From: Desulfobacterales bacterium
GTDB lineage: Bacteria; Desulfobacterota; Desulfobacteria; Desulfobacterales; JAFDHS01
Length of the DNA stretch: 35,559 bases
Direction: 5' to 3'
Assembly (NCBI GenBank): GCA_030589165.1
Contig: JAUUWG010000004.1
Coordinates: 1 to 35,559 of the forward strand
The notes under the pieces were generated by a model. That model did no database searches and was not told the DNA's origin. It was given only the letters and a program-made list of their open reading frames with translations. Position numbers and translations under genes: made by a program. How positions within the stretch are numbered: the first letter of the stretch is position 1; every line of letters starts with the position of its first letter. Positions 7,832 to 25,195 of the stretch are shown here, one piece after another.

Positions 7832-7994
7832 TATGCCTGAGTAGTTACGATTACTTTTACGGAGATGGTTATGCCGCTCTTCCGCTTACATGGATTGGAG
7901 GGGTAAACTATAGCTTTTAAGAGTTTTTTAGGAATGTTTTTTATTTTTTACTTGATTTTTATACTCTATTCTACTAAAAATGCTTACTCTCATT

Positions 7995-8155
7995 CAGGTG
8001 CTCAACAAGGCTTAATAGGGAACTCCGTGGAAATCGGGGACGGGCCCGCCGCTGTAATCGGGGACGAACACCGCATACATGTCACTGTCTGTATGAAACA
8101 GATGGGAAGACGCGGTAATTAGGATGAACTGAAAGTCAGAAGACCTGCCTGAATA
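7995..8155 (+). promoter_or_regulatory. Cobalamin riboswitch (leader 1)
   Basis: Aptamer core 'GGTGCTCAAC..GGCTTAATAGGGAACTCCGTGGAAATCGGGGACGGGCCCGCCGCTGTAATCGGGGACGAA...GTCACTGTCTG..GATGGGAAGACGCGG..GGATGAACTGAAAGTCAGAAGACCTGCCTG' (B12 box at the end). Confidence 0.95.
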
Positions 8156-8160
8156 AATAG

Positions 8161-8242
8161 TGAGCGTTTTACACAACCTTTTTTGTTTTGTTTGAGCCTG
8201 ACGCAGAAATCGGGCAAAAGAGATGGTTGTGAAAGGCTCTCA
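8161..8242. repeat. Palindromic insertion in the expression platform of riboswitch leader 1
   Basis: Absent from leader 2; arms TGAGCGTTTTACACAACC (8161-8178) and GGTTGTGAAAGGCTCTCA (8225-8242), imperfect inverted repeat. Confidence 0.6.
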
Positions 8243-8305
8243 CAGGCTTAACCTTCGTGGAAAAAAGGTGGCTGTTTCAGGATCTTGTGGATAAAAAAGG
8301 GACTT

Positions 8306-8343
8306 CCCCGGATCGATTTTATATCGGTTCGGGGTTTTTTTTT
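8306..8343 (+). terminator. Intrinsic terminator of riboswitch leader 1
   Basis: CCCCGGATCGA..TCGGTTCGGGG stem followed by a nine-T run. Confidence 0.8.
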
Positions 8344-8372
8344 GCCTCGGACCTCGAATGTCATAATTATTT

Positions 8373-8405
8373 AGAGCCGATTCGTCAGTTTTTAAACAGG
8401 CTCTT
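8373..8405. repeat. Short palindromic element between terminator and RBS in leader 1
   Basis: AGAGCCGATTCGTCAGTTTTTAAACAGGCTCT, flanked by TTA; absent from leader 2; right half resembles 27133-27160. Confidence 0.55.
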
Positions 8406-8416
8406 AGACAAGGAGG

Positions 8417-10501
8417 ATGAAGAAACAGATGAAAAGGTGGATTGCGATAGTTTTATGTTTGATTTTAGTGCCGGTAAGTAGTGCTTTCGCTCAAAATGAA
8501 TCAGAAGAGATTCATGAACTGGAAGAAGTGGTTGTTACGGCCACGCATAAGATGAAAATGCTCGATACTCCGGCAAGTATTTCCATCATAACAGCCAAGG
8601 AACTGGAGGAGATGGGAGCGAAAAATATTGTCGAAGCCCTCAGGAAGATACCCGGGGTGGATGATACAAGCTCTAAAGACTCCGCTATCTCAATAAGAGG
8701 CACCAGGAGTTCTATGGCCGGAGGTCCGGTAATACTTATTGACGGGGTTCCTCAGAAGATCGGAGATTACAGGTATGATGAATTAAGTTTTATTCCGGTT
8801 TCCCAGATAGAGAGGATCGAGGTTCTTCGTTCTGCCGGAATCGCCTATGGTCCCGGTTCTGCAAGGGGAGTTATCAATGTGATTACCAAAAAAGGAATCA
8901 AGGACAAACCGTTCAGCGGAACAGTTTCAGCTTCATATGGCTCATGGAACACTCACAACGAAAGCGCCGGGTTTTCAGGAAGAACAAATCAGTGGGACTA
9001 TTTTGTAAATGCTGCCAATTACAGCACTGAAGGGTATGAAGACGAAGAAACGGATCGGATATCAGGCCTTTTGAAGCTCGGTTACAATTTTTCGGATCAA
9101 ACCCGTATCGGTATTCGCGGTAGTATAATAGACGTGGACTCTGAGTCTGCATATGGAATGAAAAAAAAGAAATGGCAGTTGGAGAATTACCGAGAGGAAA
9201 AACATTTTCCTGTCAGTGAAACGGATTCAACTCTGTACTGGCACAATGAAAAAGATCAGGATAACTCAGTCCTTGCCCTTGAATTCTCTCATAAAAAAGA
9301 CAGGCTGTTTGTAGATTCAAACCTGTCGTGGACCAAGTATGAAGAAGACTACAAAAGCACGTACCCACTGTATACCAGCTCTAAAAGTGTCTATTATGAT
9401 TCCAAGGATCAGGACACTTATACGTTTGGAGTTTCCGGTGGTTATCTTTTTGATTTCGGAAATGTCAGCTACACGCCTTCCTTTGGTGTTAATTTTGAGG
9501 ATATAGATTTTGACCAGGACAGGGCTTACCCTTATGTCCCGACCAAAAATACGGATAAATATAATATTGATTTAGATGAGACCCAATACGGCCTGTTCTG
9601 GGATAATGATTTTCTTATTGGGCAACACTGGGGGCTGAAGATCGGTGGTCGTGTGGATAAGGCAGAGGTTAAACTTAAAGACAAGGCCTCTACTGATATT
9701 GATGAGGATGAGACCATGTTCAGTTGGGTTGTGGCCCCTTCTTACCGAATAAATGACAGGGCGAATACCTATGTCTCCGTAGCAAGAAATTACTGGTTTC
9801 CAAGCCCCCGATATTATGTCTGGGCTGCGGAAAAAGGGGGTGATCTGAACCGCCCGGAGGATTTGGAGCCGGAAGAATCCCTGACATATGAAATAGGATA
9901 CAAACATCTCTTCAGCAAGGCACTTAATGTAAACCTGACCGCTTATTTGACGGAGTATGATGACAAATTTTCCTCTGCTTATGATGCTGACGATAATTAT
10001 TTAGGCCAGAAAAATATAGGCGAGGCAGAGGCAAAAGGTATTGAACTGGAGATAGATGGGCGCCTCTGTTCCTTCTTTGGTTATCGTCTTTCCGGAGCTT
10101 ATCAGAATATAAAATGGAAATCGGGTCAGGCAAGAATCAGAAGTGGAATTTATAAAGGTATATGGGATTTGGATGGATATTATATCAAAGGAATTCCAAA
10201 ATTCAGTGGCGTCATCGGTTTGGATTTTTACCCCATGGAAGGCCTTAAATGTAGTGCGGATATAAACCATACCGGGTCTAAGTATTCAGATTATTTAAAC
10301 AAAGTGAAATACAGTTCCAAAACGACTGTTGATGTGAATATATCTTACCGGATGAATAACTGGGAAGTCTGGCTGCTGGGCAAAAATATTTTTGATGAAG
10401 AGATCGAAGCGGAATTTAACAGTACCGGCGTTGAGGACGATAGCTATTATTATGTCCAGGACGGTGCTTACGTTGAGGCGGGTTTAAGGTATCATTTTTA
10501 A
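8417..10501 (+). CDS. TonB-dependent receptor, BtuB-like corrinoid/cobalamin receptor (start more likely ATG 8429)
   Basis: Signal peptide MKRWIAIVLCLILVPVSSAFA, TonB box 'EEVVVTAT', plug 'VEALRKIPGVDD...VLIDGVPQ...IERIEVLRSAGIAYGPGSARGVINVITKKG'; B12 riboswitch upstream; AGGAGG at 8411-8416 suits ATG 8429. Confidence 0.92.
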   Translation: MKKQMKRWIAIVLCLILVPVSSAFAQNESEEIHELEEVVVTATHKMKMLDTPASISIITAKELEEMGAKNIVEALRKIPGVDDTSSKDSAISIRGTRSSMAGGPVILIDGVPQKIGDYRYDELSFIPVSQIERIEVLRSAGIAYGPGSARGVINVITKKGIKDKPFSGTVSASYGSWNTHNESAGFSGRTNQWDYFVNAANYSTEGYEDEETDRISGLLKLGYNFSDQTRIGIRGSIIDVDSESAYGMKKKKWQLENYREEKHFPVSETDSTLYWHNEKDQDNSVLALEFSHKKDRLFVDSNLSWTKYEEDYKSTYPLYTSSKSVYYDSKDQDTYTFGVSGGYLFDFGNVSYTPSFGVNFEDIDFDQDRAYPYVPTKNTDKYNIDLDETQYGLFWDNDFLIGQHWGLKIGGRVDKAEVKLKDKASTDIDEDETMFSWVVAPSYRINDRANTYVSVARNYWFPSPRYYVWAAEKGGDLNRPEDLEPEESLTYEIGYKHLFSKALNVNLTAYLTEYDDKFSSAYDADDNYLGQKNIGEAEAKGIELEIDGRLCSFFGYRLSGAYQNIKWKSGQARIRSGIYKGIWDLDGYYIKGIPKFSGVIGLDFYPMEGLKCSADINHTGSKYSDYLNKVKYSSKTTVDVNISYRMNNWEVWLLGKNIFDEEIEAEFNSTGVEDDSYYYVQDGAYVEAGLRYHF

Positions 10502-10610
10502 TTAAAACTTATAACCTACAGTGGATCACGGAGTCATGGTGTGTCCATAGGCTTAAGTTCTTATTGATTTTTATGTTCTAATTATATAATAAAACTGAAA
10601 ATTTTGTTAT

Positions 10611-10770
10611 CAGGTGCTCAACTGTAGCTTAATAGGGAACCCCGTTAGAATCGGGGACGGGCCCGCCGCTGTGATCGGGGACGAATACCGCATAGATGTC
10701 ACTGTCTGGCTGAAACAGATGGGAAGGCGCGGTAACCAGGATGAACCGAGAGTCAGAAGACCTGCCTGAA
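10611..10770 (+). promoter_or_regulatory. Cobalamin riboswitch (leader 2)
   Basis: CAGGTGCTCAACTGTAGCTTAATAGGGAACCCCGTTAGAATCGGGGACGGGCCCGCCGCTGTGATCGGGGACGAA...GTCACTG...GAAGGCGCGG...ATGAACCGAGAGTCAGAAGACCTGCCTG. Confidence 0.96.
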
Positions 10771-10832
10771 TAACAAGGCGTAATCCTCGTGGACGGAGGT
10801 TGCCTGAAGATTTTGAGGATAAAAAAGGGATA

Positions 10833-10870
10833 TCCCCGGATCGGTTTTAATCGGTTCGGGGATTTTTTTT
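10833..10870 (+). terminator. Intrinsic terminator of riboswitch leader 2
   Basis: TCCCCGGATCGG..TCGGTTCGGGGA followed by an eight-T run; same sequence type as leader 1. Confidence 0.8.
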
Positions 10871-10917
10871 GCCTCGGACCCTGAGTTTAACATGAATTTA
10901 GGTAAGGAGGAAAACAA

Positions 10918-12888
10918 GTGAAGAAATGGTTTTTTTTGTTTTTAGGTGTTGCTGTTTTAGTATTGCCGGGATTCAGTGAGGCTAAAGAGATTGAAGAGAT
11001 GGAAGAGATGGTGGTGACGGCTAGCAGGGTGAAAGAACCCAAAAAAGAGATTACGACCAATGTCAGCGTTATTGATCAGGATGCGATTAAGATCTCTTCC
11101 GCCCGAAATCTCGGTGATCTGTTGGCGGAACGAGCCGGAATTAATATCAGAAAATATACTGGAACGTTAACATCCGTAGGAATCCGAGGCTTCCGGACGG
11201 AATCCCACGGAAACGATCTTTTAGGAAAAGTACTGATACTGTTGGATGGTCGCAGAGCGGCTACCGGCAACGTGGCCAAAATCATGACCCGTAATATTGA
11301 AAGGGTCGAGATCATCCGGGGGCCGGCTTCCGTTCAGTATGGTTCGGCCGCAGTTGGTGGCGTCATCAATGTGATTACCAAACAAGGTCGCGAGAAACCG
11401 GAAGTTTTTGCAGAAGGGGGGCTGGGCAGTTTCGGCTATGAAGAGGCTGCGGCCGGTTTTTCGGGTAAGTACAATATGTTTGATTTTTCAGGCAGCTTCA
11501 GTCGTTCCTCCAGGGATGATTATGATACCGGTGATGGCGATGAATATAAAAACACCGGTTATGATGAAATTGAAAACATCAGTTTAAACCTGGGATTGGA
11601 ATTTTTGCCGGGAAATCGTCTGGGGTTCATTTACACTGCTTTTGATGCCGACGGAGTAGGGAGTTCCGGAAAATTAAGTGAAAATGATCTGGATGATTTC
11701 AAGGACAGCCGAAATGAATCGATCGATTTCGTGTATGACGGGCATACCCCATCCGGCCTTTTTTCATGGATGGCACGTTATTTTCAAGTTGATGACGATG
11801 ACAAATGGGTATCTGGTCAAGAAAGTGATCCCGACGGTTTTGATCTCTGGTATCCGGAACCTTCGAAGAGGAACACCGATTCGGAAGGTGCTCAGGGGCA
11901 GATATCGCTCAATCTGAAATATTCAACCTTGACCGCCGGCTTTGACTGGTTGAACTACGACATAAAATCGAGCTTTTCGCCGAACAAGTCGGAATATGAC
12001 AACACCGCCGGTTTTATTCTGGGTAAAACCCGCCTTCTGGATGAACGCCTGATTCTGACCGCTGGTTTGCGTTACGATGAATACGAAGTGGAAGTCATAG
12101 ATCCGGCTGGCCGAAATGAAGATGATGATAATTTCAGTCCAAGTATTGGCGTTGCATATTTGCTGAATAATCATTTGAAATTCCGAGCCAATTATGCTGA
12201 GGCCTTTGTCATGCCGGCAGCGGATCAGCTGGCAGCGGACTATGTCTCATGGACTCATTTTGTCGGCAATCCTGATCTCGACCCGGAGGAAAGCAAGACT
12301 TATGAAGGCGGAATCGATTTTTCTTATGCCGGCTTTAATTCTGCGTTAACCTATTTTTACACCGATTTTGAGAACAAGATTGAAACGGTTTATCCAAGTG
12401 CCACCGAACAAACCTGGGAAAATCTGGGCGAAGCCACGGTATCCGGCTTTGAAGGTGAAATATCATATGATTTCGGAGCATTATTTTCATGGGATGTTCA
12501 AGTCAAGCCGTATCTTTCCTTTACCTATCTCACCGAATACGAAGATGAAGAAACAGGTGAGGATCTGCAGTATACCCCCGATCTGACAGCTTCCTATGGG
12601 CTTACCATTTCGCAATCGGATGATTTTTCGGCCAATTTGAATTTTGCTTATTTCGGAGAACAAGATATCGAAATATGGCAAGGTATGATGGGCAGTACCC
12701 CTGCAAAAAAAGGCGGTTTTACGGTCGCCAATTTTACGATCAGTAAGAAGATTCTTCAGGCCGAGAAATTCGGTGGACTGACGCTCAAGGGTGAAATTCA
12801 GAATGTTTTTGACAGGGACTATGAATACAATGAGGGGTATCCGATGCCGGGCAGAAGCTTTTTTCTTGGTCTAAGGTATGATTATTAA
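10918..12888 (+). CDS. TonB-dependent receptor, BtuB-like (cobalamin/corrinoid)
   Basis: GTG start after AAGGAGG; signal peptide; TonB box 'EEMVVTASRV'; plug 'RNLGDLLAERAGINIRKYTG...VLILLDGRRAATGNVAKIMTRNIERVEIIRGPASVQYGSAAVGGVINVITKQG'; B12 riboswitch upstream. Confidence 0.93.
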   Translation: MKKWFFLFLGVAVLVLPGFSEAKEIEEMEEMVVTASRVKEPKKEITTNVSVIDQDAIKISSARNLGDLLAERAGINIRKYTGTLTSVGIRGFRTESHGNDLLGKVLILLDGRRAATGNVAKIMTRNIERVEIIRGPASVQYGSAAVGGVINVITKQGREKPEVFAEGGLGSFGYEEAAAGFSGKYNMFDFSGSFSRSSRDDYDTGDGDEYKNTGYDEIENISLNLGLEFLPGNRLGFIYTAFDADGVGSSGKLSENDLDDFKDSRNESIDFVYDGHTPSGLFSWMARYFQVDDDDKWVSGQESDPDGFDLWYPEPSKRNTDSEGAQGQISLNLKYSTLTAGFDWLNYDIKSSFSPNKSEYDNTAGFILGKTRLLDERLILTAGLRYDEYEVEVIDPAGRNEDDDNFSPSIGVAYLLNNHLKFRANYAEAFVMPAADQLAADYVSWTHFVGNPDLDPEESKTYEGGIDFSYAGFNSALTYFYTDFENKIETVYPSATEQTWENLGEATVSGFEGEISYDFGALFSWDVQVKPYLSFTYLTEYEDEETGEDLQYTPDLTASYGLTISQSDDFSANLNFAYFGEQDIEIWQGMMGSTPAKKGGFTVANFTISKKILQAEKFGGLTLKGEIQNVFDRDYEYNEGYPMPGRSFFLGLRYDY

Positions 12889-12963
12889 TGTGCTTGGCAG
12901 GGGAGTTATCCAAATGGATAACCGCCTTGCTCAACTATAAAGGTTCTCGAAAATCATTATTAA

Positions 12964-13008
12964 AATTCCTCTGCTCTCCCTTTTAAAGGGGGGGGCAGGG
13001 GGATTTAG
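12964..13008. repeat. Imperfect inverted repeat upstream of DUF2162 gene
   Basis: AATTCCTCTGCTCTCCCTTTTAAAGGGGGGGGCAGGGGGATT. Confidence 0.5.
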
Positions 13009-13023
13009 AATTGGAATTGAATA

Positions 13024-13782
13024 ATGGAACTTAAAAGTTTATTGCTCGGTCTTTTTTTCAGCGTCGGTATTTTTGCTGTTAAAAGCGGAATAGGATTGTA
13101 TTATTTTTGGGGCTGGAAAAAAGGTTTAAAATCGAAGCTTGGTTTGCTTTGTCTTTTTGGCGTTATCTATTTTTTTATTTTTATGGTTTCTTCCCACATT
13201 CTGGAGAAAATAGATTTTTTAAAATATTTTGAGACGGTGCAAAATTTTCTTAAAACGGGAATGCTCATCCATATCCTCATGGCGGGATTGCTTCTCATAT
13301 GGGGGGTGGCCCTTTTAAAGAGACAAAAGGGAGATCGGAAGAAAACGTATGGGTGGGCGGTCCTGGCCGTTCCCTGTCCGGTTTGTGTTACCGTAATTTT
13401 TTTTACCGTGGCCTTTCTTTTGTCCTATTTTCCTGATTCCGGAAATGCGGCTGTTTTGTCGGCATATGCAGGATTTGTGGGGATCAATCTTTTGACCGTG
13501 ATTCTGCTGAGTTTTTGGCAGACCCGATCAAAATCGACTCCGGAATCCCTGCTGGGCGCAGCCATGTTGATCATTGCCGCCTATTTTTTCCTGTCTGTTG
13601 TCATCATGCCCCAGTTCGGCGATCTGGACAAGATATACCGGTTGGCTCAGTACAAAGGGCAAAACCGGATGATGGATATAAAACATACTGTTTCTCTTTA
13701 TGTTCTTATAGCGGCTTCTTTTACTGTCGGATTTTTGTCGATGAGGAGAAAAACAGCCCAATCCTCAATCAGACCATTGTAA
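13024..13782 (+). CDS. DUF2162-like polytopic membrane protein (putative transporter)
   Basis: 252 aa, about seven hydrophobic segments; 'AVPCPVCVTVIFFTVAFLLSYF' signature; genomic context with ExbB-like/DUF2149/CobN-like genes. Confidence 0.75.
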   Translation: MELKSLLLGLFFSVGIFAVKSGIGLYYFWGWKKGLKSKLGLLCLFGVIYFFIFMVSSHILEKIDFLKYFETVQNFLKTGMLIHILMAGLLLIWGVALLKRQKGDRKKTYGWAVLAVPCPVCVTVIFFTVAFLLSYFPDSGNAAVLSAYAGFVGINLLTVILLSFWQTRSKSTPESLLGAAMLIIAAYFFLSVVIMPQFGDLDKIYRLAQYKGQNRMMDIKHTVSLYVLIAASFTVGFLSMRRKTAQSSIRPL

Positions 13783-13837
13783 TAAACAGCCTTGATCGTA
13801 TCTTCGACCACACCATGGATTAGGCTGAATTTTTTTT

Positions 13838-13910
13838 ACCACGAAACGCACGAAGATTCACGAAGACAAAATATTAATCATTTCTTCGCGTTCTTTCTGC
13901 GCTTCGTGGT
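13838..13910. repeat. Imperfect inverted repeat (intergenic, REP-like)
   Basis: ACCACGAAACGCACGAAGATTCACGAAGA ... TTCTTCGCGTTCTTTCTGCGCTTCGTGGT. Confidence 0.6.
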
Positions 13911-13966
13911 GAATTAAAGAACTCAAATCATGACCAAACTATAAAAAAATAAGGAGATTTAAAAAA

Positions 13967-14590
13967 TTGGACATCGGCGCACTCTTAAAGTCATTTATCT
14001 ATCTTATCGCTTCATCTCTTCTTTATCCGGTATTGCTGCTTCTTGTACTGTTGACATTGTGGGTACTGGTATATTCCGGTTCTTTTTTTGCAGAATGGCT
14101 GGAACGGCTGAGGCTTGACAAGTACAAATCGGAAGAACTCCCGGCTATTGTAAGAGAGGGAGAAAATATGAAGGTATTCTCCCATCGGGTTAAAAATTAT
14201 ATCGACAGCTTTAAACGGTTAATTGAGAGCAATGAACAGGCTGAGGAAATAGAAATAAAGATTGAGAACATGATTCAGGAAAACACCTTGAAGATATGGA
14301 AGTCTATGGATTTTCTGAGGATCCTTGTCAGGGTGGCGCCGGGACTTGGACTGATCGGCACCCTCATTCCCATGGGAACCGGGCTGGCGGCATTGGGGCA
14401 GGGAGACATGACCAAGCTTACAACCGACCTGGTGATTGCCTTTACCACTACCGTGGTAGGACTGGCGCTGGGCATTACCGCCTTCTTTTTTTACACGGTT
14501 AAAAGAAGGTGGGTGGAAGAAGATATTAAAAATATGGAACTGGCTACCGAGATGTTGGCCGAGCCGCTTTTTGGGGGTCGGAAAAAATGA
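13967..14590 (+). CDS. MotA/TolQ/ExbB-type proton channel family protein
   Basis: TTG start with AAGGAG RBS; three TMs; 'RVAPGLGLIGTLIPMGTGLAALGQGDMTKLTTDLVIAFTTTVVGLALGITAFFFYTVKRRW'. Confidence 0.9.
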   Translation: MDIGALLKSFIYLIASSLLYPVLLLLVLLTLWVLVYSGSFFAEWLERLRLDKYKSEELPAIVREGENMKVFSHRVKNYIDSFKRLIESNEQAEEIEIKIENMIQENTLKIWKSMDFLRILVRVAPGLGLIGTLIPMGTGLAALGQGDMTKLTTDLVIAFTTTVVGLALGITAFFFYTVKRRWVEEDIKNMELATEMLAEPLFGGRKK

Positions 14591-14943
14591 GATATTTCAA
14601 AAAAAAGAGAAGCGGCATCGACAACAAGTCTTTTGAAAGCCGAGCTTTCAGAGATGATGATCCGATGACGGGTCTTGCCAATCTTTTTGATATCGGACTG
14701 GTCTTTATTGTGGGGCTACTTCTGACGTTGTTTTCGGTCTACAACCTCCAGGATCTTTTTAATGAGAAATCGGATCTGACCATCATGAAACAAAGCAAGG
14801 ACGGTCAAATGGAGATCATCATCAAAAAGGGCAAAAAGATAAAGGTAATCAAAGTGACGAAAGATAAAACCCAAGGCCGGGGCCAAAGACTGGGGATCGC
14901 TTATAAACTGGAAGACGGAAGCATGGTTTATGTGCCGGAATGA
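14587..14943 (+). CDS. DUF2149 family single-TM protein (ExbD-like partner)
   Basis: ATGA overlap with the ExbB-like gene; 'DDPMTGLANLFDIGLVFIVGLLLTLFSVYNLQDLF' then a soluble basic C-terminal domain. Confidence 0.85.
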   Translation: MRYFKKKRSGIDNKSFESRAFRDDDPMTGLANLFDIGLVFIVGLLLTLFSVYNLQDLFNEKSDLTIMKQSKDGQMEIIIKKGKKIKVIKVTKDKTQGRGQRLGIAYKLEDGSMVYVPE

Positions 14944-15017
14944 TGAAAAACTTTTGATTAGTCTCTTAGTTTTGAAATTTGTGCTTTTTATGGCAGAAAA
15001 TTTCAGAATTAAAAAAA

Positions 15018-15092
15018 GTGTGAAGTGCCTAAAGTGATCTAAAGTGCCTAAAGTTGAGGGATTCTATAACCTTAGCTCACTTTAGGCACTTT
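15018..15092. repeat. Direct plus inverted short repeat (AAGTG-CCTAA type)
   Basis: GTGAAGTGCCTAAAGTGATCTAAAGTGCCTAAAGTTGAGG; AAAGTGCCTAAAGT (15041-15054) pairs perfectly with ACTTTAGGCACTTT (15079-15092). Related sequence at 25231-25260. Confidence 0.6.
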
Positions 15093-15140
15093 TCCGGTTT
15101 ATCCGGGTTAGGAACAGCTTATACTCAATGATCAAATTTT

Positions 15141-15207
15141 TTCCTGTTGACTGAATTTATTGATAATTTTTAAACAGGAATTTTATGGGGCAGTCAATAA
15201 ATTCAGT
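15141..15207. repeat. Interleaved inverted repeats (A-B-A'-B') upstream of cobN-like gene 1
   Basis: A TTCCTGTT 15141-15148; B ACTGAATTTATTGA 15150-15163; A' AACAGGAA 15173-15180; B' TCAATAAATTCAGT 15194-15207. Confidence 0.7.
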
Positions 15208-15340
15208 ATCTTATATTTTTAAGGTTTGAAAGTAATATATTTGACCCCTGTTTTTAAGTTATTGAAAATTCAATATATACAGAGTCAAGTACAAAAAACT
15301 TGATCATCGAGTTATAGGCTTAATGATGGGAGGATGATTT

Positions 15341-18300
15341 ATGTGCCGGATGAATAAAGTAAAAACTGAGGAGGGCGTAAAAAACAAGAAGTTAAAAAGC
15401 AAAATATGGTGGATAGGTATAATTGCCCTTTGTCTATCTATTTTCGTATCTTCTCGAGCTTTTGCACAGAACAAAAGCAAGATTACCTTGCTTGTAGGCG
15501 TATCTAATTCTTATAAAGTAACTCAGGCTATTTCAGAGGTCATTAAAATTTCTGAAGCAGCTAAGAGTTATGACTTTCACTTTTATACCGACAAAGATCT
15601 GGAAAATGAAGAAATTGACCAAGAGATTATTGCACAATCCAAAATTATTATTGTCGATGATATGCATCGTAACCTTACAGAGTATGTTCTAAAAAATGCG
15701 GATTTCGAAAAAACAAAGGTTTATGGCCTTTGCAGCAGGGCAAAAGAACCTGAAAAGATTATCTCCGACCCCAAAGTACAACGATACTATTATCCGGCCA
15801 CCCAAGAGAATATCAAAAACCTCCTTCTTTTTCTCCTCAATCGTGATTGCGGACTTGATATTAATTACGGAGGACCACAAAACATACCGAAAACAGGTAT
15901 TTTCCATCCGAAGAGTGACAGAATTTTTAATAATTATGAACAATATCTCGCCTGGTACAAAGAAAAAGGGCTTTATTCCGGAGATGATTTCTGGGTAGGC
16001 ATACCCGATATGTCCACCTATGCTTTTCCCGGAGAAACCGGAGTCATTGTAAGTTCGCTCATAGAAACTCTTGAAATGAATGATATCAATGTGCTGCCGG
16101 TTTATTCCTACCCCGCATATGTTGCTTTGAATAATTTTTTTGTAGATAAAGACGGACGTTCCAGAGTTGATTTAATTGCGGCGCTATCCTTTAAGTTTTC
16201 TTCTGTTCTTAATGAAAAGGCGCGAAAAAATCTGTCAAACCTGGGGGTTCCTTTCCTGAACGCCATTAGAATCAATTTCCTGACGATCCCGGAGTGGACG
16301 GAATCTTCCCAAGGATTGGGACCCATGGAAATTTCTTACGCCATGAGTACTCCGGAATTCAACGGTCTGATTGAACCTTCTGCTCTTGGCGGAAAGGAAA
16401 TCCTGAAAGACAAGCGAACGGGCAAAAAAGTTTATAGGTTTAAACCGATATCGGAAAATATTGACTTTTTCGTCAGGCGGGTAAAGGCTTGGAAAAATCT
16501 CCAAGAGAAAGCGAACAAGGACAAAAAGATTGCCATTATTTATTGGAACCACACGCCGGGCAAGCAGAATATAGGCGCGACATACCTTAATGTTTTTCGC
16601 AGCCTGGAAGAAATATTAAAGAGAATGCGCAAGGAGGGCTATACGATTGAAGGAAAACTTCCTTCGGAAGAAGAGATTAAAAGTCTTGTTTTAAAAAGTG
16701 GCCGTAATATCGGTTCCTGGGTTCCGGGTGAACTCGATGTGCTCATCAATACCAAAGGGGTCATCCGGCTGCCTGTGGCCAAATATCTGGAATGGTATAA
16801 GAAGATAGATGAGGACTACAAGGAGAAACTGGAAGCCGAATGGGGCAAGGTGGAAGATTCGGAAATTATGATCAAGGATAAGGAGATTATCATACCTTAC
16901 GTAAACCTGGGCAATGTTATTCTTGTCCCCCAGCCTTCAAGGGGTTGGGGTGATGACCCGATGAAACTGTATCATTCCACACAACTCTGGCCGCATCATC
17001 AATACACGGCTTTTTATCTCTGGCTGAAGCATGAATTTAAGGCTGATGCTATTGTTTCTCTGGGAACACACGGCACCCACGAATGGCTTCCCGGTAAGCA
17101 GGCAGGTCTCAGCCAGTCCTGTCCACCGGAAGTTCTCATCCAGGATCTGCCCAATCTTTATCCCTATATTATGGATGATATCGGAGAGGGGATACAGGCC
17201 AAACGCCGGGGACGGGGCGTGATTATCGACCATCTTATTCCGGCAATGAAAAAGGCGGGGATTTATGAGGAGTATCGGGACCTGGCTGTTTTAATAAATG
17301 AATACAACGATGCCCTTACCCGCAGTGATGCACTGGCTAAAGAGAAGTTCAAAAGAATCAAAACCCTGGTGAAAAAACTCGGTCTGGATAAGGACCTTCT
17401 TTTAAAAGAGGTGGATGAAGAGGCGGTAGAGGAGATTGAACACTATCTCATTGAGTTGCAGGAGGCCAATTTGCCTTATGGCCTGCACACCTTTGGTATC
17501 TCTCCGGAAGGGGAGGCATTGAAAGAATTCAGCCGGTTGATCAAACAAAGAAATGAAGAGCTGTCTTTAGGTGAGATCGAGAAAAGATTAAGCCTCTGCC
17601 ATCTGGAGATAGACCGTCTCATTGCCGGTCTGGAAGGCAAGTATATCCCTTCGGGTGAAGGGAATGACCCCTTGAGAAATCCCGAGGCCATCCCGACGGG
17701 GAAAAACTTTTACGGATTTGACCCGGCCAAGGTCCCTTCAAAGGATGCCTATGCCCTGGGGAAAAAGCAGGCCGAAGAGATGATAGAAAAATATCTAAAG
17801 GAAAAAGGAGAGTATCCGGAAAAAATCGGACTTGTCCTTTGGAGCATAGAGTTACAGCGTAATGAAGGGACTCAGGTAGGGACAGCGCTTTACCTTTTAG
17901 GGATGAAGCCTGTCTGGGATAAAAATGATAAAGTGACTGGTGTTGAGCCCATTCCCGGGGCACTGCTGGGTCGGCCAAGGATAGATGTTCATATGCAGGC
18001 TTCCGGACTTTTTAGAGACAGTTACCCCAATGTTATTCTTCTTTTAGATGAGGCCGTGCGTCAGGCAAGCCGGTTAAAGGATGTGGAGAACTTTATCGCC
18101 AACCACAACCGGAAGATAAAAGATTCTCTGCTAAAGAAAGGATACAGCGAAGATGATGCAGAGAATTTAAGCAAAATAAGAGTCTTTTCTGCTCAACCCG
18201 GCAGCTATGGAAATACCATAGAGGATCTAATTCCCAATAGTGGTCTCTGGGAAAGGGACGAAGAGATTGCCGATGTGTTCATTAATTTTGTATCCTTTGG

Positions 18301-19336
18301 ATATGGCAAAGGTGTCTGGGGAAAACCACTGAAATCCGCGTATAAGAGAAACCTCGAAGATATCAAGATTACCATGCACACCCGGTCCAGCAACCTTTTT
18401 ATGAATATGGACACCGATGATGTGTTTGTATGTCTCGGCGGCCTTTCCTTAGCAGTAAAAAAGGTAAGCGGTGAATATCCGGATGTCTTGCTTTCTATCC
18501 AGAAAGATCCTGATGCCGCTCATATTGAAGATATTGAAAAAATCCTGGGACAAGAACTGCGCGCCCGTTATCTCAATCCCAAATGGATTGAAGGGATGAA
18601 AAAGGAGGATTACGCCGGGGCAAGGGAGATGAAAAGATTTGTAGAACATATGTGGGGCTGGCAGGTGACCACCCCATTTGCCATTGATGAGACCAAATGG
18701 GAGCAGACCTACGAGGTATACGTGGAAGACAAATACGGCCTCGAAATAAAGGAGTTCCTCAACAAGGCAAATCCCTGGGCCTATCAGTCCATCACCGCCC
18801 GGATGCTGGAAGCTGTCCGGAAAGGCTATTGGAAAGCCGATCAAAAAGTGAAAAAGAAGCTGGCGGTTGAATATGCCGTAAATGTCGTTGAAAAAGGAGT
18901 CGCCTGCTGTGATCATACGTGTAATAATCCCGTTTTGAACCAGATGGTGGTCAATATCATATCCCTTCCCGGGGTGATGTCTCCTGAAATGGTTGAAAAG
19001 TTCCGGTTGGCCATCGAGCAGGCTACAGGCAAGTCTCTGATAGAGCAGGTAACGGACAGAAAGGAATTGCAAAAAAAGCTGAATGAGGGGTTTGATAAAA
19101 CAACACGGATAGATGAACAAAAGATGTCTGACCCCAAATCAAAAAAGGAGATTCAGAAAGATGACACCCAAAAGGGAAGTGAATCCAAATCGGTGGAAGG
19201 GTATAAGATGGAAGAGGTAAAGGCAGGGGAGGAAACCACGGATCTTGCATCTTCCGGCGTCCAGTGGTTTGCTTCTCTTTTTGTTATCCTCATTATCGGA
19301 TTGTTTGTCTATGGCGTAAAAAGCCGGAAAGGGTAA
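15341..19336 (+). CDS. cobN: CobN/BchH-family chelatase-like protein 1, predicted periplasmic with C-terminal TM anchor (HmuS-like)
   Basis: 1331 aa; 'LGTHGTHEWLPGKQAGLS', 'GEGIQAKRRGRGVIIDHLIP', 'YIPSGEGNDPLRNPEAIPTGKNFYGFDPAKVPS' CobN/BchH signatures; N-terminal hydrophobic segment ending SRAFA; C-terminal TM 'WFASLFVILIIGLFVYGVKSRKG'. Confidence 0.92.
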   Translation: MCRMNKVKTEEGVKNKKLKSKIWWIGIIALCLSIFVSSRAFAQNKSKITLLVGVSNSYKVTQAISEVIKISEAAKSYDFHFYTDKDLENEEIDQEIIAQSKIIIVDDMHRNLTEYVLKNADFEKTKVYGLCSRAKEPEKIISDPKVQRYYYPATQENIKNLLLFLLNRDCGLDINYGGPQNIPKTGIFHPKSDRIFNNYEQYLAWYKEKGLYSGDDFWVGIPDMSTYAFPGETGVIVSSLIETLEMNDINVLPVYSYPAYVALNNFFVDKDGRSRVDLIAALSFKFSSVLNEKARKNLSNLGVPFLNAIRINFLTIPEWTESSQGLGPMEISYAMSTPEFNGLIEPSALGGKEILKDKRTGKKVYRFKPISENIDFFVRRVKAWKNLQEKANKDKKIAIIYWNHTPGKQNIGATYLNVFRSLEEILKRMRKEGYTIEGKLPSEEEIKSLVLKSGRNIGSWVPGELDVLINTKGVIRLPVAKYLEWYKKIDEDYKEKLEAEWGKVEDSEIMIKDKEIIIPYVNLGNVILVPQPSRGWGDDPMKLYHSTQLWPHHQYTAFYLWLKHEFKADAIVSLGTHGTHEWLPGKQAGLSQSCPPEVLIQDLPNLYPYIMDDIGEGIQAKRRGRGVIIDHLIPAMKKAGIYEEYRDLAVLINEYNDALTRSDALAKEKFKRIKTLVKKLGLDKDLLLKEVDEEAVEEIEHYLIELQEANLPYGLHTFGISPEGEALKEFSRLIKQRNEELSLGEIEKRLSLCHLEIDRLIAGLEGKYIPSGEGNDPLRNPEAIPTGKNFYGFDPAKVPSKDAYALGKKQAEEMIEKYLKEKGEYPEKIGLVLWSIELQRNEGTQVGTALYLLGMKPVWDKNDKVTGVEPIPGALLGRPRIDVHMQASGLFRDSYPNVILLLDEAVRQASRLKDVENFIANHNRKIKDSLLKKGYSEDDAENLSKIRVFSAQPGSYGNTIEDLIPNSGLWERDEEIADVFINFVSFGYGKGVWGKPLKSAYKRNLEDIKITMHTRSSNLFMNMDTDDVFVCLGGLSLAVKKVSGEYPDVLLSIQKDPDAAHIEDIEKILGQELRARYLNPKWIEGMKKEDYAGAREMKRFVEHMWGWQVTTPFAIDETKWEQTYEVYVEDKYGLEIKEFLNKANPWAYQSITARMLEAVRKGYWKADQKVKKKLAVEYAVNVVEKGVACCDHTCNNPVLNQMVVNIISLPGVMSPEMVEKFRLAIEQATGKSLIEQVTDRKELQKKLNEGFDKTTRIDEQKMSDPKSKKEIQKDDTQKGSESKSVEGYKMEEVKAGEETTDLASSGVQWFASLFVILIIGLFVYGVKSRKG

Positions 19337-19346
19337 AAGTGAGCAT

Positions 19347-22300
19347 ATGAAAAAACTTCTTACTGTCTCTATGCTTGTTCTTTTCTTGTTTCCTTCCATC
19401 ACGATTGCCAAGCGCATATCATTTCTGGTGGTCGACGCCAACACCTGCCTTTTGAATAAGGCCATTAAAGACTTAAGTCTTCCTGAAGGCATTGAGGTCA
19501 GATTTTTTATACACAAGGATATGAGGGATGATACTCAGGCACAGGAATTTGTTTCTTCATCCGAGGTCATCATCGTTGATGTTATGATGAAGGAAATGAG
19601 CGAATATCTGGTTACCAATGTCGATTTTGCGAACAAGCGGGTTTATGCCGTAAGGGGGTCGAGGGATGATGAGACGCTGGAAAAGCAGGGATTTATTTTT
19701 GATCCTGCCGTCAAAGCGTATTATCAATACATGACGGTGAAAAATATTCAAAACCTGGTTTACCGGGTGGTCAATAAAGCCTTTGATCCGTCTTTTCCCT
19801 ATGAGGAACCGGAACGACTGCCTGAGTTGAGGATCTATCACCCGGATAATAAAGAAGCTTTTACCTGTTATGAAGACTATTTGAAATGGTATGAAAAACG
19901 GTCGGGGTATGTAAAAAAAGCCCCTTGGGTCGGTATCATGGCTTTTTCCTCCATGCTCATGGAAGGGCAGACGGAGAGCATGGATTATTTAATAAAGCAG
20001 CTTGAAAAACAGGGGTTCAATGTCATTCCTGCGTTTGGACGAGACCTGAAGATCTTGACCCAAATTTTTCTGGATGAGAAGAGAAAGTCAAGAGTTGACC
20101 TTGTGCTGGCCTATACCCTTAAATTTTATTCTTCGATCAACGATAAAGTCAGGGCTGCCATCAAGGCTCTGGATGTTCCGATGGTAAATGCCATCCATCT
20201 GTATGGCAGTACCATCGAAGAATGGGCAAAAGACCCGAAAGGTCTTTTGCCCATGGATGTGATGTGGAACATCGCAAATCCCGAGATATCCGGAATCATT
20301 GAACCGACCCCTTTGTCCGGCAAGAAGGAGATGGTTGATGCGGAATCGGGCAGGCATTATTTCGTGCACCGGCCTGTAGAAGAAACCATTGATCTGCTGA
20401 TTCCCAGACTGAAAAAATGGGTGGCGTTAAGGCAAAAGGCCAATGAAAAAAAACGGGTTGCCATTCTTTACTACAATCACAGCCAGGGTAAGCAGAATAT
20501 CGGTGCCAGCTATTTGAACGTGTTTAAAAGCCTTGATTTGATTTTAAACCGCATGAAAAATGAAGGCTATCAGGTAAAAGCGGATCAACAGATCAGTGAA
20601 AATGCCGTCAAGGATCTGATTTTAAAATACGGCAGAAATATCGGAAGCTGGGCGCCGGGAGAATTGGACCGGATGCTCAGAGAAGAAAAGGTGATTCGGC
20701 TGCCGGTTTCAACCTACCGGAAATGGTTTGATGATTTGCCGGAAGATTTTAAAACAAAAGTGATCAGCCAGTGGGGCAGGGCGGAAGCGTCGAATATCAT
20801 GATCAAAGACGGGCATTTTATTATCCCGGCGGTTTTGCTGGGCAATGTCATGGTAATGCCGGAACCCTCCCGCGGCTGGGGTGACGAACCCATGAAGCTC
20901 TACCATGATCCCACCTTGTACCCCCATCATCAGTATATCGCAGCCTATCTGTGGCTCAAGCATGTGTTCAAGGCCGATGCCATGATTCATCTGGGAACCC
21001 ATGCCACCCATGAATGGCTTCCGGGAAAACAGGCCGGACTTTCAGCATCTTGCCCGCCGGATGTTCTGATTACCGACATCCCCAATATTTATCCTTACAT
21101 CGTGGATGATGTCGGCGAGGGAATTCAGGCCAAACGAAGGGGCAGGGGCGTGATTATCGATCACATGATTCCCCCGCTCAAAGAGAGTGAACTTTATCAC
21201 GAGTACGCTCAGATTTACGATTTGATCAGCAGTTACAGCCGTTCAACCTCGGTGGCCAGTAAAACTACAGGCCTCAAGTTGAAGAAGATCATTGATCTGG
21301 TTAAAAAAACGGGGATTGATAAAGATCTCGGCATAACTGAATTTGATGAGGAAGGTCTGGAAGAAATCGAGCATTATCTTTTGGAAATCAGAGAAAATTT
21401 TATGCCCTACGGCCTTCATACCTTTGGCCGGGCATATGAGGGAGAGGCCCTTGAGGAGACAGTCAACTGCATTGTTAAACGAAATACCGGGTTTGATAAG
21501 GATCAGGCCCGAAAAAAGGTTTATGATTCGGGAAGACGAGAAATCGATAACCTGATCAAGGGGTTAAACGGCGGCTATATTCCATCGGGGGAGGGGAATG
21601 ACCCGATTCGAAATCCGGCCGCTGTCCCCACCGGAAAAAATTTTTACGGATTCAACCCGGCAAAGGTACCTTCGAAAATAGCCTGGGAACTGGGTAAAAA
21701 AGCAGCTCAGGAGATTATCGATAAACATATAAAGGAAAAGAAATCCTATCCCGACAAGGTGGCTGTGGTGCTATGGGCCACGGAAACCATTCGAAATGAA
21801 GGGGTAAACGAATGTACTATTTTATACCTGATGGGGTTAAAGCCTAAGTGGGACCGCTCGGACCGGGTCACCGGCACTCAAGTGATTCCGGGAAGAGAGT
21901 TGAAAAGACCCAGAATCGACGTGTTGATCAATCCGTCCGGGCTTTACCGGGACCTTTTCCCCAACATGCTTGATTTTCTGGATAAAGCAGTCCAGAAAGC
22001 AGCCGCCCAGCAGGATATCGAAAACCTGATCCGCAAGCATAATGAACAGATCAAGACCCGTCTGATAAAATCCGGCATGGATGAAAAAGAGGCGGATGTG
22101 TTTTCCCGCATTCGGATATTTACGGAAAAGCCGGGTTCCTATGGGACCGGTGTGGCTGAAATGACCGGGGCGTCCGGTTTCTGGGAATCGGATGATGAAA
22201 TCGTCAATGTCTATGAAAACCGGGTCGGTTATGCCTTTGGCCTGGGGAAATGGGGAGAACCGGCAAAAGAGGTGTTCAAGGAGAATCTCAAAGGGGTTAA

Positions 22301-23273
22301 AATAGCCGTTCATTCCGTTTCCTCCAGTTTGTATGGGACCATGGACAATGATGACGTGTTTCAGTATCTGGGCGGACTCTCCCTTGCGGTAAAAAAAGAG
22401 AGCGGAGAAGCACCGGATACCATGGTTTCCATGCAGAGAATTCCCAACCGGATTGAAGTGGAAGATATCGCAAAAACCATCGGCAGAGAACTTCGAACCC
22501 GGTATCTCAATCCCAAATGGATAGAGGGGATGAAAAAGGAAGACTATGCAGGCGCCCGTGAAATGGCCCATTTTGTAGAATACATGTGGGGCTGGCAGGT
22601 GACAACGCCCCAGGCCGTTGATAAAAACAAATGGCAAGAGACCTATGAGGTTTACGTTGAAGATAAGTACGGCATGGAGATAAAGGAATTCTTTAACAAA
22701 GCAAATCCATGGGCCTATCAGTCCATTTCCGCCCGTATGCTGGAGGCTGTCCGAAAGGGATACTGGAAGGCCGAAGAGAAAGTGAAAAAGAAGTTGGCGG
22801 TTGAATATGCCGTAAGTGTTGTTGAAAAAGGGGTGGCCTGCTGTGATCATACCTGCAACAACCCTGTTTTGAACCAGATGGTGGTCAATATCATATCGCT
22901 TCCCGGGGTGATGTCGCCCGAGATGGTGGAAAAATTCAAAATGGCCGTTGAGCAGGCTGCAGGCAAATCTCTGGAAAAACAGGTAAAGAACCGAAAGAAA
23001 TTGCAAAAAAAGCTGAATGAGGGGTTTGATAAAACAACACGGATAGATGAACAAAAGATGTCTGACCCCAAATCAAAAAAGGAGATTCAGAAAGATGACA
23101 CCCAAAAGGGGCCTGAATCCCAAACAGTGGAAGGGTACAGGATGGAAGAAATGAAGCCAAAGGATGAGACCACGGATCTTGCGTCTTCCGGGGTCCAGTG
23201 GTTTGCTTCCCTTTTTGTCATGCTGATCATCGGCTTATTCGTCTATGGTGTTAAGAAAAATAATTTAAAGTAG
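19347..23273 (+). CDS. cobN: CobN/BchH-family chelatase-like protein 2 (tandem paralog), predicted periplasmic with C-terminal TM anchor
   Basis: 1308 aa; same signatures as protein 1 ('LGTHATHEWLPGKQAGLS', 'YIPSGEGNDPIRNPAAVPTGKNFYGFNPAKVPS'); signal peptide MKKLLTVSMLVLFLFPSITIA; C-terminal TM. Confidence 0.92.
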   Translation: MKKLLTVSMLVLFLFPSITIAKRISFLVVDANTCLLNKAIKDLSLPEGIEVRFFIHKDMRDDTQAQEFVSSSEVIIVDVMMKEMSEYLVTNVDFANKRVYAVRGSRDDETLEKQGFIFDPAVKAYYQYMTVKNIQNLVYRVVNKAFDPSFPYEEPERLPELRIYHPDNKEAFTCYEDYLKWYEKRSGYVKKAPWVGIMAFSSMLMEGQTESMDYLIKQLEKQGFNVIPAFGRDLKILTQIFLDEKRKSRVDLVLAYTLKFYSSINDKVRAAIKALDVPMVNAIHLYGSTIEEWAKDPKGLLPMDVMWNIANPEISGIIEPTPLSGKKEMVDAESGRHYFVHRPVEETIDLLIPRLKKWVALRQKANEKKRVAILYYNHSQGKQNIGASYLNVFKSLDLILNRMKNEGYQVKADQQISENAVKDLILKYGRNIGSWAPGELDRMLREEKVIRLPVSTYRKWFDDLPEDFKTKVISQWGRAEASNIMIKDGHFIIPAVLLGNVMVMPEPSRGWGDEPMKLYHDPTLYPHHQYIAAYLWLKHVFKADAMIHLGTHATHEWLPGKQAGLSASCPPDVLITDIPNIYPYIVDDVGEGIQAKRRGRGVIIDHMIPPLKESELYHEYAQIYDLISSYSRSTSVASKTTGLKLKKIIDLVKKTGIDKDLGITEFDEEGLEEIEHYLLEIRENFMPYGLHTFGRAYEGEALEETVNCIVKRNTGFDKDQARKKVYDSGRREIDNLIKGLNGGYIPSGEGNDPIRNPAAVPTGKNFYGFNPAKVPSKIAWELGKKAAQEIIDKHIKEKKSYPDKVAVVLWATETIRNEGVNECTILYLMGLKPKWDRSDRVTGTQVIPGRELKRPRIDVLINPSGLYRDLFPNMLDFLDKAVQKAAAQQDIENLIRKHNEQIKTRLIKSGMDEKEADVFSRIRIFTEKPGSYGTGVAEMTGASGFWESDDEIVNVYENRVGYAFGLGKWGEPAKEVFKENLKGVKIAVHSVSSSLYGTMDNDDVFQYLGGLSLAVKKESGEAPDTMVSMQRIPNRIEVEDIAKTIGRELRTRYLNPKWIEGMKKEDYAGAREMAHFVEYMWGWQVTTPQAVDKNKWQETYEVYVEDKYGMEIKEFFNKANPWAYQSISARMLEAVRKGYWKAEEKVKKKLAVEYAVSVVEKGVACCDHTCNNPVLNQMVVNIISLPGVMSPEMVEKFKMAVEQAAGKSLEKQVKNRKKLQKKLNEGFDKTTRIDEQKMSDPKSKKEIQKDDTQKGPESQTVEGYRMEEMKPKDETTDLASSGVQWFASLFVMLIIGLFVYGVKKNNLK

Positions 23274-23294
23274 AGACGTGTCGGTGACACGTCT
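23274..23294. repeat. Perfect short hairpin between cobN-like 2 and receptor gene
   Basis: AGACGTGTC-GGT-GACACGTCT; no poly-T, so probably not a terminator. Confidence 0.65.
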
Positions 23295-23308
23295 TAAGCA
23301 CAGAAAGG

Positions 23309-25195
23309 ATGTATCTTAATATGAGGCGTACCTGGCTGCTGGTTTTTGGGTTTTGTTTATTTCTCGTTTTGGTTTGTGTAGCTCCCGCAATGTCTGACCA
23401 TGCGCCTGCTTATTCCTTGGGGGAAATTGTTGTTGTGGCTGAAAAACTATCCGAATATGTAAAGAATCATCCCCAGCGGGTTTCTACTCTTGACAAAAAG
23501 GAGATCCAAGAGCGGAATTTTCTGGATCTTAACGAGGCTGTCGGTTCCATGCCGGGAGTGGATGTCAGTCAATCGGCCGGTGGTCTTGGGTCAAGAATCT
23601 CGATCCGCGGCAGCGGAGGATCAGGGTCGGTATTGGTTCTGGTAAACGGCAGACCCGTTAATTCCGGGCAGTATGGTGGAATTGACCTGAGCACCATTCC
23701 CATTGAAATCATAGAGAAAATAACCGTATTCAAACCGCCGGTACCGGTCTGGCTAGGCCCGGAGAGTACAGGCGGAGCGATTAATATTGTGACGCGCACC
23801 TCCGGACTAACCGATTCCAAAGAAGAGAAGAAGAAAAGAACGCGCCTCAGGATGAGCGGCGGCTCCTATGGAAGAGCCGATGTGAATTGCTCTCATGTGA
23901 TGTCCCTGGATAACGGCAGTTTCATGGTTACTGCCGGTGGCGGCCACAAGGACGGTAAACGGCCTAACGCCGACAAGGATACCGCTAATTTAAGTCTTCA
24001 TTGGGACCGGGAACAGGATAACCTTGTTAAATATGATATAAACGGACGTTATTATTATTCAGAACACGGTTCCACGGGTCCTGTAGACAATCCTACGCCT
24101 GACGCCCGGCAGTATTACAACAAGGGGGCTTTGGACTTTCGTGCCAAGGGACTTATGGGGGATACCGGTGAATTTTCTATCAAGTCATATCTTGATGCAG
24201 CGCGTCTCAAGGACAAGTCCCAGTTCGATTATACCTCCACTCTCGAAACCTATAAGATCGGTATCAAAGGTGACGGCAACTGGGCCGAAGAAGCCGGAAA
24301 ATGGGCATTGCGCCTGGGGGGAATGTTTGAAGAGGATATTGTTGATCATTCCATCACCGGTGATCATCACCGGGAAAAGACATCGATCAATAGCCAGTTT
24401 GACCGGGATTTGGGTGATGTTACCCTCAGTCTTGGCCTGAGGGGAGACCATACCAATGATTTTGGATTTTTCCCGGCTTTTTCCATCGGTCTCGGTTATG
24501 CTCTCGGACCGGCCAGTATCCTTAAAACCAATGCGGGATATTCCGTGAACGTCCCCACCTTTGGTCAGTTGTATCAACCCAGCCATGGTTCCATCGATCA
24601 GGTCAGGGGGAATCCGGATTTATCGGAAGAAGAGGTCTACTCCTATGATTTCGGGCTTGAACATAAATTCAGCCCGGATTTTATTGTTGAAGCCGTATTG
24701 TTCAGGAGCGATACCCAGGATTTGATAAGCTACCGTCGAGGCGCAGACCTGATTTATCGGCCGGTCAATATTTCCCGGGCATACAAGCAAGGGGTAGAGG
24801 TTTCCATCAAATACAAGTGGAAAAAGGATGCTTCCATAGATATCAGTTATATTTTTCAGAAAAGCAAGGACAAGGAGACTGATGGCGAGCTGATCTATAC
24901 GCCCCGGCATAAGGCCAAGATTACCGGAAAATATGTTCTTGCGACCAACACCCGGCTTGAGGCGATACTCAGGGCCGTAAGCGATCAGTACAGTGATTCG
25001 GAAAACAGCGATTCGAAAAAAATCGACGATTACACGAGTGTGGATTTGAAGATGATTCAGCCTTTTGCCGATAAATCCCTGCCCGGTGAATTCTTTATTC
25101 ATATTCAAAACCTGTTTGATACGGATTTTGAATTTCATCAGGGCTATCCCGACGATGGAATCCGATTTGTTTGCGGTTTGAACTTAAACTTTTAA
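23309..25195 (+). CDS. TonB-dependent receptor, third in the locus (start more likely ATG 23321)
   Basis: Signal peptide MRRTWLLVFGFCLFLVLVCVAPAMS; TonB box-like 'GEIVVVAEK'; plug 'LNEAVGSMPGVDVSQSAGGLGSRISIRGSGGSGSVLVLVNGRPVNSGQYGGIDLSTIPIEIIEKITVFK...GGAINIVTR'. Confidence 0.92.
   Translation: MYLNMRRTWLLVFGFCLFLVLVCVAPAMSDHAPAYSLGEIVVVAEKLSEYVKNHPQRVSTLDKKEIQERNFLDLNEAVGSMPGVDVSQSAGGLGSRISIRGSGGSGSVLVLVNGRPVNSGQYGGIDLSTIPIEIIEKITVFKPPVPVWLGPESTGGAINIVTRTSGLTDSKEEKKKRTRLRMSGGSYGRADVNCSHVMSLDNGSFMVTAGGGHKDGKRPNADKDTANLSLHWDREQDNLVKYDINGRYYYSEHGSTGPVDNPTPDARQYYNKGALDFRAKGLMGDTGEFSIKSYLDAARLKDKSQFDYTSTLETYKIGIKGDGNWAEEAGKWALRLGGMFEEDIVDHSITGDHHREKTSINSQFDRDLGDVTLSLGLRGDHTNDFGFFPAFSIGLGYALGPASILKTNAGYSVNVPTFGQLYQPSHGSIDQVRGNPDLSEEEVYSYDFGLEHKFSPDFIVEAVLFRSDTQDLISYRRGADLIYRPVNISRAYKQGVEVSIKYKWKKDASIDISYIFQKSKDKETDGELIYTPRHKAKITGKYVLATNTRLEAILRAVSDQYSDSENSDSKKIDDYTSVDLKMIQPFADKSLPGEFFIHIQNLFDTDFEFHQGYPDDGIRFVCGLNLNF

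Follow-up and report, generated by a model that had tools for sequence, protein, structure and literature searches.

What does a CobN-like chelatase do when cobalamin riboswitches stand before its gene, its product carries an export signal, and the neighbouring genes encode a proton channel instead of an ATPase? The question is raised by a 35,559-nucleotide stretch of Desulfobacterales DNA (GCA_030589165.1, contig JAUUWG010000004.1; "the window," meaning the whole stretch analysed), which is contig C74 of a draft genome of 2.17 Mb, 247 contigs and 64.6% completeness. Rfam and Pfam place two cobalamin aptamers, three TonB-dependent receptors, a DUF2162 protein, an ExbB-like subunit, a DUF2149 protein and two CobN-family proteins on its forward strand, just as a first-pass annotation had listed them (Table 1). 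Judging from the sequence, it is likely that this locus encodes an extracytoplasmic, corrinoid-directed system built around a chelatase; the corrinoid link, the periplasmic site and the use of the proton motive force (PMF) are, if indirectly, well supported.

Regulation, neighbors and active site of the CobN-like proteins

Both aptamers match RF00174 (gathering score 31.5), the upstream one beginning 16 nt before the start given in the first-pass annotation (7995). The region's two best terminator-like sites each sit between an aptamer and a start codon, suggesting that both riboswitches are likely transcriptional OFF switches; because of this placement, and because the arrangement recurs in relatives, we exclude a chance arrangement. 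The recovered host genome holds five RF00174 sites: the two at this locus, two on contig C135 (one before a TonB-dependent receptor and a BtuF-CbiZ fusion gene, the other before a run with ExbB-ExbD-TonB) and one on contig C184, upstream of CbiK and CbiC. Their placement argues that the locus belongs, so far as can be seen, to a corrinoid regulon. The earlier statement that CobS/CobT, BtuCDF and corrin-ring genes are missing holds for the window, where we saw none, but as to the ring genes and the permease not for the host genome, which carries CbiK, CbiC and a FecCD permease (a BtuC-family ATP-binding cassette (ABC) permease, contig C17) elsewhere.

A scan of named genomes yielded 79 related loci, mostly in Desulfobacterota but also in Synergistaceae, Planctomycetaceae, Victivallales, Omnitrophota and Poribacteria; no relative of the module was found in the viral contigs searched. 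CobN has ExbB and DUF2149 nearby in 63 of these loci and DUF2162 in 58, and many of the loci without such neighbors are short contigs. A riboswitch, called with a covariance model built in this analysis, lies upstream on the same strand in 44 loci (44 of the 53 whose gene run is preceded by more than 1.5 kb of sequence); eight of the nine riboswitch-less loci were also searched with the Rfam model, which gave no riboswitch on the operon strand of any. All seven module-bearing loci of the same order have a riboswitch. The co-occurrence of DUF2162, ExbB, DUF2149 and CobN with a cobalamin riboswitch, for which the first-pass annotation had proposed a search, is thus a recurrent one. At one locus (L098, 9833-15190), a frame of 1785 residues starts as a CobN-like protein and ends as a TonB receptor, being either a fusion or an assembly error.

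The neighbors point in the same direction as the riboswitches. In or beside the operon, 37 of the 79 loci carry a gene of about 670 codons whose product, in the examples scanned with Pfam, fuses a BtuF-like binding protein to CbiZ, the adenosylcobinamide amidohydrolase that is known for remodelling (PMC6461909). The fusion bears an N-terminal export signal; among the open-licence literature we found no paper describing it. Two lineages go further and encode BtuF-CbiZ-CobN as a single chain, one in Synergistaceae (L058, 1968 aa) and one deltaproteobacterial (L077, 2024 aa), each with a single N-terminal signal, one C-terminal transmembrane segment and nothing hydrophobic in between; the N-terminal part of L077, unlike that of L058, looks damaged. 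CbiK lies near the module in about 20 of the 79 loci, or about a quarter.

In both CobN-like proteins (about 55% identical to each other), an export signal opens the chain and a transmembrane helix followed by Lys/Arg closes it, a layout that predicts a bulk lying in the periplasm and anchored in the inner membrane. The same signal and helix recur in nearly every homologue whose ends are complete, with CCxHxC before the tail and SSGxxW at the entry to the helix. The CobN proteins encoded near ChlI/ChlD-like ATPases in the same phylum (Desulfobulbus rhabdoformis, Desulfocicer) have neither the anchor nor the motif, a difference that favors the extracytoplasmic site proposed earlier.

The best-characterised member of the anchored chelatases is HmuS, for which a structure (PDB 9d26) and NADH-dependent iron removal from heme were reported in 2025 (PMC12583661). 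Aligned with HmuS, 73 of 73 homologues keep H506, H538, E542 and E577 (HmuS numbering). The residues specific to HmuS (His254, Gln1198, Trp1202, His1209 and Glu1212) are replaced in the branch that holds the window proteins (hereafter the B12 branch): position 1209 is Asp in 69 of the 73, and at the column aligned with His254, a ligand of heme site 1, His occurs in two of the 73 and in neither window protein. The homologues have an invariant Met80 in the head region, the HmuS segment with the other site 1 ligand, Met79, lying outside the alignments. A methionine-rich insertion of about 120 residues is missing, such that HmuS 701-926 corresponds to about 10 residues in the window proteins. The motif LSLDHxxEFMGG of HmuS reads D[NT]DDxxQYLGG in most B12-branch homologues, close to the DSDDxxQ of Mycobacterium tuberculosis CobN and CobN 9uk9; CobN-like 1 has DTDDVFVCLGG. 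Four HmuY-linked HmuS proteins all retain the HmuS residue set (SLDH). By this contrast, the anchored chelatases fall into two branches, one for heme and one whose site resembles that of a cobaltochelatase. Taken with the riboswitches and the BtuF-CbiZ and CbiK genes or fusions, the CobN-type motif in place of the HmuS type points to corrinoids, not heme, as the probable substrate class, as had been proposed.

In our trees, which are unrooted and in the first of which HmuS is long-branched, the B12 branch is sister to HmuS and apart from cytosolic CobN. An AlphaFold2 model of CobN-like 2 (pLDDT 87.5) has a template-modelling (TM) score of 0.85 to HmuS 9d26, 0.73 to CobN 7c6o and 0.68 to ChlH. 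Two other loci (L103 and L104) encode cytosolic CobN near ChlI/D-like ATPases with RF00174 nearby, and their motifs, of the form SCTDYYNYYGG, are of neither known type.

Putative motor, candidate permease and a possible mechanism

No ChlI/D-type ATPase above 100 bits was found in 13 of 20 carrier genomes, including the complete genome of Desulfonema magnum, and CobT was absent from 19 of the 20, the remaining one having a weak match; in the host's own genome, 65% complete, we found no CobS/CobT or ChlI/D partner. What the loci do encode is a putative proton motor: the transmembrane Asp35 of DUF2149, which takes the position of the Asp in ExbD, is invariant (60 of 60), and ExbB, which matches its Pfam model, keeps the channel threonines Thr132 and Thr162 in 67 of 67. 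The profile match of DUF2149 to ExbD is weak (E 0.06) and confined to the transmembrane Asp motif, and DUF2149 has no PDB match of value. A separate TonB-ExbB-ExbD set is present in the host (the riboswitch-linked one on C135) and beside the module in several relatives, such as Trichlorobacter (Geobacter) lovleyi pSZ77, suggesting that ExbB/DUF2149 probably serves not the receptors but the chelatase, perhaps via the SSGxxW tail helix. For the same reason we set aside, for these loci, the published view of HmuU/HmuV, which are proposed to energise receptors (PMC10100974, PMC12583661). The missing ATPase partners in most genomes and the separate TonB set support the idea, already put forward, that PMF acts through ExbB/DUF2149 in place of ATP.

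DUF2162 keeps PCPxC and Met181 in 60 of 60 sequences and His83 in 57 of 60, and its AlphaFold2 model is confident and helical (pLDDT 88.9); there was no PDB match by sequence or fold, so that no function can be assigned from the fold. In one lineage (L015/L038) the last part of DUF2162 is fused to CobN, and a protein with weak resemblance to NicO/DsbD_2 takes the place of DUF2162 in Runella slithyformis; both observations suggest a link of DUF2162 with the chelatase and with metal. The Runella module, on pRUNSL01 (L108, 1235-21717), consists of a TonB-dependent receptor, the NicO-like permease, ExbB, DUF2149 and a CobN-like protein with the D[NT]DD motif, lies inside a hyp/NiFe-hydrogenase cluster and has no riboswitch. 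It is possibly a nickel version of the module and offers the sharpest hint that the module delivers metal, although, as a single locus, it is thin evidence. An identity of DUF2162 with HmuT was not supported, since Pfam DUF2162 fails to match the HmuT of three Bacteroidota. On an Azospirillum brasilense plasmid (L116, 4569-16527), CobN-ExbB-DUF2149, an ABC importer, a TonB receptor and nikR are clustered, with nikR some 7 kb from the module; its chelatase motif is HmuS-like (His254, STDHPFEYLG), and for that reason we did not count it as evidence for nickel.

The mechanism that we favor builds on features legible in the sequence itself: the riboswitches, the export signals, the intact superfamily catalytic residues, the corrin-type motif, the partner genes and the missing ATPases. 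At low B12, termination would be lifted and the gene set switched on; TonB receptors, powered by the separate TonB-ExbB-ExbD set, would carry corrinoids into the periplasm, where the two membrane-anchored chelatases would bind the corrin ring. The ExbB-DUF2149 motor would then drive opening and closing of the chelatase through its C-terminal transmembrane helix, replacing the CobST or ChlID ATPases. The most likely direction would be demetallation or metal exchange: Co(II) would leave and pass through DUF2162 to the cytoplasm, where CbiK could use it for new corrin rings, while BtuF-CbiZ would salvage the ring side in parallel, with ring fragments entering via BtuF-CbiZ and the ABC permease. 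As a whole, this B12-repressed, PMF-driven envelope machine that removes the metal of corrinoids is a model we favor tentatively, at a little under an even chance; it would make the system look like a vitamin B12 equivalent of HmuS. A wider generalisation is more doubtful still: a family of PMF-driven periplasmic machines might strip metals from imported metallo-tetrapyrroles, the active-site motif and the permease setting the metal, be it iron in HmuS, cobalt at this locus or nickel in Runella. The present branch would, in some lineages, chain cobalt release on one polypeptide to side-chain cleavage by CbiZ.

Several points weigh against the model for this locus. Cobalt is very tightly held in corrins; we know of no enzyme that removes it and leaves the ring intact, nor of any precedent for cobalt release from corrinoids. 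The B12-branch motif resembles that of CobN, which inserts cobalt, and CobN-like 1 departs from it somewhat, in that Val replaces the Gln of the CobN motif and Ser takes HmuS position 534; the two paralogues may thus have different tasks. BtuF-CbiZ is encoded neither in this window nor in some relatives, and since the host genome is 65% complete, absences from it are weak. DUF2162 has no known fold, and its metal cargo, like the coupling of the motor and the direction of the reaction, is something we infer. Further, HmuS was reported to be active in vitro as a purified protein (PMC12583661), so a motor may not be needed.

Rival readings and characterized relatives

The same proteins could run in the opposite direction, PMF driving the anchored CobN-type proteins to load cobalt, in the periplasm and ahead of ABC uptake, into imported corrins that lack it or carry the wrong metal. 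Insertion is the ATP-coupled direction of CobN, it fits a motif like that of the true cobaltochelatase, FecCD-type permeases occur in 11 of 12 genomes searched, and the CbiZ neighbors imply that the ring is used; yet cobalt-free corrins are, to our knowledge, known from few organisms, the hosts already insert cobalt early by CbiK, and insertion leaves DUF2162 without a clear role. The closest tested relative, HmuS, runs toward removal (PMC12583661), and we consider insertion unlikely. The fusions of CobN to a BtuF domain and, in one lineage, to the last part of DUF2162 would also suit a device in which CobN-like, DUF2162, ExbB and DUF2149 import or hand off whole corrinoids by PMF, the chelatase fold binding them without chemistry, much as a heme-carrying role has been suggested for HmuT (PMC10100974). 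With catalytic residues invariant in every homologue aligned, FecCD-type permeases present and DUF2162 a small protein whose invariant residues include soft-metal ligands, we judge pure transport, too, to be improbable.

Two further readings are weaker still. An hmu operon for heme iron under odd regulation would account for partner families like those of hmuRSTUV, the sister relation and best fold match to HmuS, and the poor growth of a B. fragilis btuS1 btuS2 double mutant on heme iron (PMC6460266), but no HmuY-like gene was found in the window, the HmuS-specific residues are replaced, the methionine-rich insertion is missing, and both the riboswitches and the CbiZ/CbiK neighbors speak of B12; this reading is very improbable. 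That the proteins are an ordinary cytoplasmic cobaltochelatase for late cobalt insertion is scarcely credible: although they are of the CobN family and some carrier genomes encode ChlI/D-like proteins elsewhere, the export signal and C-terminal anchor, the near absence of CobT and the lack of ChlI/D in most genomes oppose it, and the CobN found near ChlI/D is a different, unanchored protein.

Among known systems, hmuYRSTUV of Bacteroides thetaiotaomicron shares with this locus an anchored periplasmic class I chelatase, ExbB and DUF2149, a TonB receptor, the superfamily His538/Glu577, the C-terminal Cys pair and the fold. It differs in that this locus has B12 riboswitches, DUF2162 in the place of HmuT, D[NT]DD for SLDHxxE and no HmuY (HmuY is present in the three HmuS plasmid loci compared). 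CobN-CobS-CobT and CobN-ChlID cobaltochelatases share the CobN fold and, in the two solved CobN proteins, D[SN]DD (CobN-like 2 has D[SN]DDxxQ), but are cytoplasmic, unanchored and driven by AAA+ ATPases. The cobN cluster of pSZ77 has the order DUF2162-ExbB-DUF2149-CobN and RF00174 sites as here, with ExbB-ExbD-TonB, unlike here, within the same gene run; its CobN was noted to lack CobST, and its exact role was called unknown (PMC3403914).

BtuS, named by Rodionov in 2003 (cited in PMC6460266), makes up a third type of CobN-like protein next to CobN and ChlH: a B12-linked protein, predicted to be periplasmic and anchored, clustered with receptors and motor genes. The window proteins fit this description and most likely belong to the same family. 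Cobalamin-riboswitch hmu-like operons in B. fragilis were likewise read as cobalamin-related in 2023 (PMC10100974). The core idea of the first-pass annotation is supported as to corrinoid link, periplasmic site and PMF, but had been published before in these two forms. Set against them, this branch extends over Desulfobacterota and several other phyla and has two paralogues, the BtuF-CbiZ link and single-chain fusions. New in this analysis are the split in the motif, the link to CbiZ with its single-chain fusions, the lack of ATPases, the TonB set apart from the module, the attenuators and the variant linked to hydrogenase. If the model is true, cobamide metal chemistry would take place outside the cytoplasm, paid for by the proton gradient, and the view of cobalt and B12 exchange in anaerobic communities would be revised. 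Set apart by regulation, neighbors and active-site motif, the B12-linked branch points to a concrete substrate class, and its single-chain BtuF-CbiZ-CobN proteins are open to expression.

Gene content of the window

All Pfam matches for genes of the locus exceed the curated cut-offs (Table 1).

Table 1. Features of the riboswitch-chelatase locus, in window coordinates
Feature	Position	Strand	Evidence
Cobalamin riboswitch aptamer 1	7979..8166	+	RF00174, 105.7 bits, E 1e-25
Intrinsic terminator, likely expression platform of riboswitch 1	8306..8334	+	12-pair stem and T run, -19.8 kcal/mol, z -4.6
TonB-dependent receptor 1	8417..10501	+	PF00593/PF07715
Cobalamin riboswitch aptamer 2, heads main gene run	10596..10783	+	RF00174, 105.3 bits
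Intrinsic terminator, likely expression platform of riboswitch 2	10832..10863	+	14-pair stem and T run, -23.9 kcal/mol, z -5.1
TonB-dependent receptor 2	10918..12888	+	PF00593/PF07715
DUF2162 inner-membrane protein, candidate metal permease	13024..13782	+	PF09930, E 7e-39
ExbB/TolQ-like proton channel subunit	13967..14590	+	PF01618 (MotA_ExbB), E 1e-16
DUF2149, ExbD-like partner with one transmembrane segment	14587..14943	+	PF09919, E 7e-33
CobN-like protein 1: export signal, chelatase body, CCxHxC, C-terminal transmembrane helix	15341..19336	+	PF02514 (CobN-Mg_chel), E 0; hydropathy
CobN-like protein 2, layout as protein 1	19347..23273	+	PF02514, E 0
DNDDVFQYLGG motif of CobN-like 2, cobaltochelatase type, replacing SLDHVYEFMGG of HmuS	22344..22376	+	Alignment
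TonB-dependent receptor 3	23309..25195	+	Pfam; top NCBIfam model is a B12 receptor, below its cut-off

Two near-perfect long inverted repeats lie at 13827-13920, in the gap between DUF2162 and exbB, and at 25280-25353, past the last gene; their matches to miRNA models are by shape only, and the second matches on both strands. They are probably mobile repeat elements or terminators, and the second is possibly the transcript end.

Outside the locus, a match resembling the cyclic di-GMP riboswitch c-di-GMP-I-UAU (5226-5305, reverse strand) reaches 64.3 bits against a gathering score of 65.9. Downstream of it are genes for a CHASE8 histidine kinase, a TonB receptor and a YfiR-like protein (283-5190, reverse strand), from which a gene for a PleD-like diguanylate cyclase (5478-7256, forward strand) diverges. 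At the other end, an open frame (27291-35559, forward strand) runs off the contig after at least 2756 aa; it encodes a nitronate-monooxygenase-like domain, three ketosynthases and an acyltransferase, a domain content that recalls polyunsaturated fatty acid or polyketide synthases.

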